DNA of 64,000 nucleotides from Methyloceanibacter sp. wino2 (lineage in GTDB: Bacteria > Pseudomonadota > Alphaproteobacteria > Rhizobiales > Methyloligellaceae), in the NCBI RefSeq assembly GCF_003071365.1, contig NZ_CP028960.1, positions 1 to 64,000 on the forward strand, read 5' to 3'. The notes beneath the pieces are model-generated. The model was given only the letters and a program-made list of their open reading frames with translations, was not told the origin of the DNA and ran no database searches. The position numbers and the translations under genes were made by a program. Positions 12,748 to 16,024 of this stretch are shown here, in pieces; position 1 is the first letter of the stretch; every line of letters begins with the position of its first letter.

Positions 12748-14016
12748 TCATCGGTCGCACTCTCCAAAGACAACATCGATCGAACCCAGAACGGCCGAGA
12801 CATCGGCCAGCATATGTCCGCGTGTCAGGAATTCGAGCGCCGATAAATGCACGAAACTGGGCGCTCTGATCTTGCAGCGATACGGTTTGTTGGTGCCGTC
12901 GGAGACGAGATAGACCCCGAATTCGCCCTTCGGCGCCTCGACGGCCGCGTAGGCCTCGCCGGGCGGCACGTGATAGCCCTCGGTGTAGAGCTTGAAGTGA
13001 TGGATCAGGGCTTCCATGGAGCCCTTCATCTGCGCGCGCTTGGGCGGGACCATCTTGTGATTGTCGACCGTCACCGGGCCCGGCGTCTCTGTCAGAAGCT
13101 CGCAGCACTGTTTCATCAGATGGATGGACTGACGCATCTCTTCCATGCGGATGAGATAGCGGTCGTAGCAGTCGCCGTTCTTTCCGATCGGCACGTCGAA
13201 TTCCAGCTCGTCGTAGCACTCGTAGGGCTGGCTCTTGCGCAGGTCCCAGGCTGCGCCGGTGCTCCGGATCATCACGCCGCTCATGCCCCAGGCCCAGGCG
13301 TCCTCCTGGCTGATCGCGCCGATGTCGACATTGCGCTGCTTGAAGATGCGGTTGTCGGTGAGCAGGCCCTCGATGTCGTCACAGACCTTGAGAAACGGAT
13401 CGCAGAACGCGTAAATGTCGTCCACGAGTTCCGGCGGAAGGTCCTGGTGCACGCCGCCGGGGCGCACATAGGCCGCATGCATGCGGCTGCCGCTGGCGCG
13501 CTCATAGAACACCATCAGTTTCTCGCGTTCCTCGAATCCCCATAGCGGCGGGGTCAGAGCGCCGACGTCGAGCGCCTGCGTGGTGATGTTGAGGAGATGC
13601 GACAGGAGCCGTCCGATCTCCGAATACAGAACGCGGATGAGCTGGCCCCGCTTCGGGACAGTGAGGCCGAGCAGCTTTTCGACGGCAAGCGAGAAGGCAT
13701 GCTCCTGATTCATCGGCGCGACATAGTCGAGCCGGTCGAAATACGGCAGCGCCTGGAGATAGGTCTTGTGCTCGATCAGCTTCTCAGTGCCGCGATGAAG
13801 CAGGCCGATATGCGGATCCACGCGTTCGACCACCTCGCCGTCCAGCTCGAGAACCAGACGCAAGACGCCATGGGCGGCCGGATGCTGCGGGCCGAAATTG
13901 ATCGTGAAGGTTCGGTCGCCGTCCTGCGGAATCCCGGCGTCGGGATTGCCGCCCACAGGCTTGTGGTCGAAATCGGGAACGATCTCTTCGTGTGAGTCGA
14001 CGTCGGTGTCGGCCAT
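12748..14016 (-). CDS. nuoD: NADH-quinone oxidoreductase subunit D
   Basis: 49-kDa subunit that forms the quinone-binding pocket with NuoB; homologous to the large subunit of [NiFe] hydrogenases without the metal. The 422 residues include the [14 protein letters not shown] block (near 41-54), which contains the histidine lining the quinone site, and [13 protein letters not shown]. The C-terminus ends in the family-typical VVFGECDR. NuoC and NuoD are separate genes here, unlike the fused E. coli form. Its ATG overlaps the stop of the preceding thioesterase gene (TAATG at 14014-14018). Confidence 0.97.
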
Positions 14017-14465
14017 TACGCAGGCGCCTCCTCGAGGGGCTGATCGGGAACCTTGTCGCGCTTCGGCGCGACGCCGCGTTCGAACCGGTTCCAGGCGACG
14101 ATGAAGCGGTCGTGGATGCCCGCGCCGATCTCGTCGACGCCATCATGCGCGGCCACGCGGAACTTCGCGCGCGGACCTTTGACTTCGATGCACTCGGCCT
14201 CGACGGTCACGGTCAGGCCGGGCGGCGTCGCGGCTGTATGGGACACGTCCACATGGACACCGACGCTGCCCTCGCCTTCGTCCAGGTGCGGGGCGAGAAG
14301 CTGAACGCAGGTCCATTCCATCAAGCCGATCATGAAGGCCGTGGCGAACACTTCGGGCATGGCCTGGAGCTCGGGCGACTCCTTGTAGAGATGCGGGACC
14401 GTCTTGGTGGCGGGCACCGTGTAGGAGAAGCTATGCTTGAGGCCGGGGGTCAGCGTGTCTTTCAC
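14016..14465 (-). CDS. FlK-like hotdog-fold acyl-CoA thioesterase embedded in the nuo operon
   Basis: A 149-residue single hotdog-domain protein resembling the fluoroacetyl-CoA thioesterase (FlK) family. Family-like blocks are [15 protein letters not shown] and [12 protein letters not shown]. The residues I recall as the FlK catalytic set fall at Thr42, Glu50 and His76 here, with the same spacing. It presumably hydrolyses a short acyl-CoA in the cytoplasm; the substrate cannot be told from sequence. The gene is wedged between nuoC and nuoD with overlaps at both ends: ATGA with nuoC (14462-14465) and TAATG with nuoD. It must therefore be co-translated with complex I. I know of no established role for it in complex I. 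Confidence 0.85.
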
Positions 14466-15088
14466 GACTTGTCCTCCCCTTCCTCGACGACGCTGGCTTT
14501 TTCGTCGCCGGGGATCGCCGTCTCCATGGCCTCCCAGGGGCTGAGATAGTCGAAGTCGCGATAGTCCTGCATGAGCTGCACGGGCTCGTAGACAACGCGC
14601 TTCTGCTCATCGTCGTAACGCAGTTCCACGAACCCGGTGAGCGGGAAGTCCTTCCGCAGCGGATGGCCCTCGAACCCGTAGTCCGTGAGAATACGGCGCA
14701 GGTCCGGATGCCCGTCAAAGACGACGCCATAGAGATCGAAGGCCTCGCGCTCGAACCAATTCGCGGCCGGGAAGATGCCGACGATGCTCGGGACCGGCGT
14801 CTCGGCATCGGTCCTGACCTTCACGCGGATGCGCAAATTCTTCCAAGGGCTCAGCAGGTGGTAGACGATGTCGAAGCGCTCTTCGCGCTCGGGATAGTCG
14901 ACCCCGCATACGTCGATCAGAGAGCCGAAGCGGTAGTCCTGGTCGTCGCGCACCAGCGTGATGACGTCGCAAATGCGGTCGCGCGCAACTTCCAGCGTCA
15001 GTTCGCCGTGAGCCACTGTGAACCCGACGAGCGCCGGCCCTAGCTTCCCCGAGAGGTCGCTGCCCAGTTTGTTCAGTTCGTCGTCCAT
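14462..15088 (-). CDS. nuoC: NADH-quinone oxidoreductase subunit C
   Basis: 30-kDa peripheral subunit that scaffolds NuoD and NuoB. The 208-residue frame starting MDDELNKLG holds the family signature ERE(A)[18 protein letters not shown] and the [12 protein letters not shown] motif. The start at 15088 is chosen because the longer open frame upstream is a shadow of nuoB. It follows the nuoB stop by 23 bases. The C-terminal tail (EEGEDKS) overlaps the start of the thioesterase gene by four bases. Confidence 0.96.
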
Positions 15089-15111: not shown

Positions 15112-15658
<547 letters not shown>

Positions 15659-15668
<10 letters not shown>

Positions 15669-16024
15669 TCGAGCGCGCCTTTCCGCCACTCGTAGATGAA
15701 CCCGACGGTAAGCACGCCGAGGAAAACGATCATGGCCCAAAAGCCCAAGGCCGGCAGTCCATCAAACGCGACGGCCCACGGGAACAGGAAGGCCACTTCG
15801 AGGTCGAAGATGATGAAGAGCAGCGACACGAGATAGAACCGCACGTCGAACTTCATGCGCGAATCATCGAACGCGTCGAACCCGCACTCATAGGCCGAGA
15901 CTTTCTCGGGGTCCGGATTGCGCACCGCGATGACGTTCGGAATCAACAGCAGAACGGTGCAGATGACGAAGGCGATCGCGATGAAGATGACGAGAGGAAG
16001 ATAGTCGAGAAGCAACTGGCCCAT
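15659..16024 (-). CDS. nuoA: NADH-quinone oxidoreductase subunit A
   Basis: First gene of the nuo operon, a three-helix membrane subunit (ND3 family) at the quinone-channel entrance. The 121-residue form begins [11 protein letters not shown]; a TTG start at 16048 would add eight residues but is less likely. The conserved loop [12 protein letters not shown], with the ND3 loop cysteine, and the [21 protein letters not shown] helix are present. It overlaps the downstream nuoB start (TGATG). Upstream lies only the tRNA-Asp gene, so the operon promoter should be in or just before 16025-16075 unless the tRNA and nuo share a transcript. Confidence 0.96.

Follow-up and report, generated by a model that had tools for sequence, protein, structure and literature searches.

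We analysed a 64,000-nucleotide stretch of the Methyloceanibacter sp. wino2 genome (hereafter, the window). An open reading frame of 149 codons lies on the minus strand between two complex I genes, in the order nuoC-ORF-nuoD. The features at this locus are as follows.

14016..14465, minus strand: FlK-family thioesterase gene, 149 aa, GTG start (open reading frame, Pfam, structural model and PDB comparison)
14462..14465, minus strand: GTGA, FlK start codon overlapping the nuoC stop codon (4-base overlap, recomputed)
14014..14018, minus strand: TAATG, FlK stop codon overlapping the nuoD start codon (1-base overlap, recomputed)
14462..15088, minus strand: nuoC, complex I 30 kDa subunit (PF00329 and open reading frame; the start near 15088 is a reading of the protein and the open frame extends to 15439)
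12748..14016, minus strand: nuoD, complex I 49 kDa subunit (PF00346, 402.5 bits)

The initial annotation described a 149-residue gene between nuoC and nuoD. This gene was found, and Pfam identified NuoC and NuoD on either side. The span originally given, 14014-14465 with no strand, is corrected to 14016-14465 on the minus strand. Overlaps had been proposed at both ends. The TAATG shared with nuoD stands, but the ATGA proposed at the nuoC end does not; the GTG start makes this GTGA. ATGA does occur at the nuoC end in other nuo-linked FlK members. Across 58 nuo-linked loci, the FlK-nuoC junction is a 4-base overlap in 34 and no longer than 30 bases in 44, with more than 100 bases intervening in 13. 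Separately, we observed that nuoB (15112-15740, minus strand) occupies two frames, since its length differs by one base from that in four relatives (L001, L057, L058, L061), each of which has it as a single open frame. The split may be a sequencing error or a real break.

By sequence and structural prediction, the window protein is a FlK-family (PF22636) hotdog protein. The Pfam match has E=4e-34 and 117.3 bits, against a curated cut-off of 27; an NCBIfam search assigned no family. The FlK alignment covers residues 1-135 with an E-value of 5e-46. An AlphaFold2 model (pLDDT 94.6) has a predicted hotdog fold closest to FlK. The first 15 PDB matches of the model are all FlK, at 54-56% identity and an rmsd of 1.1-1.8 Å. 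The F36A mutant structures 3p3f and 3p3i are among the PDB entries listed. Entries 3kv7 and 3p2q are FlK, the fluoroacetyl-CoA thioesterase of Streptomyces cattleya. The next-best solved structures are the hotdog thioesterase-like proteins TTHA0967 of Thermus thermophilus (2cwz) and TM0581 of Thermotoga maritima (2q78). These are only 24-28% identical to the window protein.

FlK is mainly known for protecting a fluoroacetate producer from its own product. Its catalytic residues are Thr42, Glu50 and His76, and Phe36 acts as a lid or gate. The three catalytic residues had been claimed for the window protein and each aligns with its FlK counterpart; Gly69 and Arg120 are also shared. In the alignment of the nuo-linked set, T42, E50 and R120 are present in 58/58 proteins, and H76 and G69 in 57/58. 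The single exception (L052) is a nuo-linked FlK of 109 aa in which an internal gap removes the Gly69-His76 stretch. It comes from a MAG and an error is possible. The window protein differs from FlK in having Met36 for Phe36 and Leu33 for Phe33. Methionine replaces Phe36 in 56/58 nuo-linked proteins and 36/38 close free homologues. Among the aligned rows, Phe36 occurs only in FlK itself and in two Streptomyces proteins (L026, L041). From this substitution, fluoroacetyl-CoA is an unlikely substrate of nuo-linked FlK. The label FlK-like is thus sound as to family membership, but fluoroacetyl-CoA specificity is doubtful. PF22636 matched one gene in the window genome and was also found in 5 of 14 control genomes. 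Hence, membership of the family tells little of substrate.

The gene is under selection. Compared with five relatives, dN/dS for FlK was 0.024-0.12, in the range of NuoC (0.03-0.12); NuoD gave 0.02-0.14. We then consider how often the gene occupies this position. In a draw of 397 genomes from the order, 86 had some FlK match and 47 encoded a full-length homologue with at least 53% identity. In 47/47, this homologue was preceded by nuoC and followed by nuoD, all on one strand. These counts refer to gene order and strand, and five loci carry extra genes in between (L086, L089, L097, L100, L101). The gene had been predicted to be always nuo-linked, and the shared slot agrees with this. Neither sporadic linkage nor a clade with most members elsewhere was seen, and close homologues elsewhere are not part of the nuo branch. 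The shared slot, together with a dN/dS like that of NuoC, indicates more than chance. Hence, we rejected chance insertion and annotation artefact as explanations.

A search of genome contigs placed 21 of 55 relatives between nuoC and nuoD. The titles of these entries name Methyloceanibacter, Methyloligella, Rhodoplanes, Taklimakanibacter and alphaproteobacterial MAGs. The remaining 34 had no nuo match within the 3 kb or less searched on each side, or within less at contig ends. In the family of the window genome, FlK is in the slot in 26/30 genomes. In three others (G023, G024, G029) nuoC adjoins nuoD without FlK (L129-L131), and the only match is a paralogue of 43-45% identity; the fourth (G027) had no FlK match. 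The next full-length matches in the order (G118, G082, G089, G271; 42-47% identity) showed no nuo linkage. In a draw of 386 genomes from the class, seven outside the order had a full-length homologue with at least 53% identity, and none of the seven had a nuo match within about 1.5 kb. A broken homologue in G335, 57% identical over residues 1-82, lies away from nuo (L116). We considered this 89-aa fragment as a counter-example and rejected it. It is nearest to the free homologues L115, L117 and L114, and is therefore probably outside the nuo clade.

To place these proteins we built a FlK tree of 103 rows, including 58 distinct nuo-linked proteins; 32 distant relatives were removed beforehand. 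A single branch, with support of 71/78, separates the 58 nuo-linked proteins from the other rows. This branch was present in 75% of 200 bootstrap trees, but the bootstrap had not settled and support for the clade is therefore only moderate. Hence, the monophyletic nuo-linked clade foreseen in the initial annotation was recovered as one branch, but with support that is not decisive. A larger quick tree of 135 rows, made without L050, L055, L116 and L126, gave the same clade except for the long-branch L113, which was placed outside. Holding the 57 nuo-linked rows without L113 as one clade was not rejected (p-AU 0.299).

Pairwise distances across 56 loci (L001, L052 and L059 excluded; pairs not independent) correlated between FlK and NuoC (rho 0.48), FlK and NuoD (0.42) and NuoC and NuoD (0.65). 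FlK distances thus fit mostly joint inheritance with NuoC and NuoD. Rhodoplanes (L016, L017) is an outlier, with FlK 67-71% identical to that of the window and closer than expected from the Nuo proteins. We rejected a second nuo operon in Rhodoplanes, as a NuoD search at 1e-60 gave a single match in each of the two genomes, with 69-71% identity.

Close homologues outside the order were examined in nine alphaproteobacterial genomes, comprising the seven from the class draw plus G786 and G787. In 5/9, lpd precedes FlK on the same strand (L161, L164, L165, L167, L177), and a PGPGW-like gene intervenes in four of these five. Briefly, FlK directly follows lpd in G590. The PGPGW-like gene separates the two in G677, G786 and G476, and FlK is 1.9 kb beyond it in G465. 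The full order in G476 is sucA-sucB-lpd-PGPGW-like-FlK. The sucA-sucB-lpd context is a step making NADH and acyl-CoA. No lpd match was found in about 12 kb around FlK in G439, G649 and G722; in G787, only 1.1 kb upstream of FlK was covered. For the free homologues as a whole, we rejected a common neighbourhood, since among the 25 of 90 Pfam families listed none occurred in more than 3 of the 75 neighbouring proteins selected from the listed open reading frames.

The nuoC-nuoD junction also holds other genes. Longer junctions carry genes for GFA-domain proteins (PF04828), one 23S_rRNA_IVP gene (L102) and other recurrent genes. We built a profile from 10 FlK-linked GFA proteins. This matched 113/357 genomes at 1e-32, and we examined the best 70 of the 113 loci, down to about 1e-43. 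The GFA gene was between nuoC and nuoD in 43/70, in 10 with FlK and in 33 with no FlK seen; slot loci include L181-L190, L192, L194, L195, L197-L199 and L201-L203. Since only the best 70 matches were examined, 43/357 genomes is a lower bound. The frequency is about equal to that of FlK in the slot. Like FlK, GFA-domain proteins thus occupy the slot in this order, and the two occur together in 10 loci. They differ in that GFA is a separate Pfam family whose Cys motifs are invariant, and slot GFA was found in 14 family codes against 8 for slot FlK. A quick tree groups slot GFAs together (5 label changes versus 21.7 in shuffles), but not into a single clade. At 1e-32 the GFA profile did not match the window genome; in its congener G012, GFA and FlK genes are both present.

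Other genes recur here. In six loci (L087, L088, L092, L104, L105, L107), nuoC and FlK are separated by one of about 99 codons, and the L104 copy had no Pfam match. Another of about 150 codons recurs in the same place (L089, L097, L098, L100); the L098 copy had no Pfam match. Away from the slot, genus g6 of the window genome's family (G023:C77, G028:C158, G029:C209) has a FlK-like paralogue of 43-46% identity and a GFA gene on one contig. The two are 4-8 kb apart with no nuo match nearby.

Fae (PF08714) is a methylotrophy marker. It matched 82/397 genomes of the order draw and 1/14 controls (Methanosarcina acetivorans). Genomes with FlK in the slot were Fae-positive in 33/47 cases, compared to 49/350 others. 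In families f1 and f2, FlK was present in 32/33 Fae-positive versus 6/11 Fae-negative genomes (Fisher p 0.002, kinship not corrected). Because kinship is outside the statistic, the association is a lead only. Outside f1 and f2 there was no association, with Fae in 1/9 FlK-positive genomes versus 48/344 others. Rhodoplanes carries slot FlK and, to our knowledge, is not a known methylotroph. We rejected methylotrophy as a full explanation of FlK, the association being confined to f1 and f2. One f2 genome (G343) departs from its family. It has Fae but lacks a full-length FlK and matches NuoD only weakly (4.7e-119), and may have an incomplete complex I or one of a different type.

What might the gene do? 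We tentatively favour an active thioesterase that clears small, electron-poor or aberrant acyl-CoAs and is made together with complex I. In such a scheme, the gene would most simply have been gained at the nuoC-nuoD junction in a single event within the order, and then been kept with losses. Its product would be an FlK-type acyl-CoA thioesterase with a working active site, and the codons overlapping nuoC and nuoD make it probable that translation is coupled to that of complex I. Candidate substrates would be alpha-substituted acetyl-CoA analogues; glycolyl-CoA is a guess. These acyl-CoAs may arise as side products of fast-running 2-oxo acid dehydrogenases, of the TCA cycle and, in methylotrophs, of the serine cycle. 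Clearing them would safeguard the CoA pool as well as the enzymes that make NADH ahead of complex I. We read FlK as an enzyme because the catalytic residues are kept. For the same reason, acyl-CoA clearing is the best fit among the roles initially proposed. The homes of these genes, beside NADH-producing and NADH-consuming machinery, likewise suggest clean-up of small aberrant acyl-CoAs. Several observations count against this reading. The gene is patchy (47/397), support for the clade is moderate and the link with Fae is missing outside f1 and f2. In addition, the broken homologue of G335 lies away from nuo and the neighbours of free homologues have no theme.

The same evidence bears on other readings. 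It is doubtful, though far from fanciful, that FlK is a passenger, inserted at a point of the operon that tolerates extra genes, with a role unrelated to respiration. The junction accepts many inserts, GFA, 23S_rRNA_IVP and others among them, and FlK is patchy among genomes of the order. However, FlK is in the slot in every one of the 47 genomes while other inserts vary, its dN/dS is low, and close homologues are found at lpd in other orders. Furthermore, FlK has gone from the slot in G023, G024 and G029, by what we infer to be loss, and removal therefore seems possible. A strict counterpart of S. cattleya FlK, conferring resistance to fluoroacetate or haloacetate, is very unlikely. The identity to FlK and the identical catalytic residues favour it, but Met36 predominates in nuo-linked proteins and close free homologues alike. 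The complex I link would also stay unexplained; unlike the S. cattleya gene, that of the window sits in the nuo operon.

FlK could instead be a recruited enzyme fold that serves complex I as an accessory subunit or assembly factor, attached to the hydrophilic arm close to NuoC and NuoD and with catalysis of secondary importance. Retention in the nuo operon across the clade, in the same slot between two core-subunit genes in 47/47 genomes, is what an accessory subunit should show. The counterpart of NuoC is NDUFS3. There is a precedent in the complex I structure of Paracoccus denitrificans, where a recruited enzyme, CI-PIMT, is bound to NDUFS3 and has lost its catalytic residues (PMC11522691). 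Both are enzyme families tied to alphaproteobacterial complex I, FlK by gene position. CI-PIMT lacks its catalytic residues, whereas FlK keeps its own almost without exception. Close relatives without nuo linkage also closely resemble the nuo-linked proteins. The gene is patchy, and complex I therefore does not depend on it. On balance, we think a subunit role unlikely. Less likely again is a conserved slot for accessory enzymes, in which FlK and GFA, alone or together, would be complex I partners that neutralise reactive thiol conjugates. These conjugates would be acyl-CoA, and formaldehyde or glutathione adducts, neutralised where NADH is oxidised. The enzymes might even be accessory subunits that dock on the NuoC/NuoD module and stay catalytically active.

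A literature search by titles and the starts of abstracts, across partial listings and with most subscription papers outside, found no link between a thioesterase and nuoC-nuoD. The nuoC-nuoD junction as a shared slot, the lpd-side homologues and the FlK-Fae association in two families are new here. An intact active site inside a complex I operon hints at a tie between CoA clean-up and respiration. If this is true, the nuo-tied FlK clade and its relatives next to 2-oxoglutarate dehydrogenase genes would suggest that the FlK family serves a general housekeeping function. Enzyme genes at a fixed position of the complex I operon, in one alphaproteobacterial order, are also relevant to how complex I acquires accessory functions.
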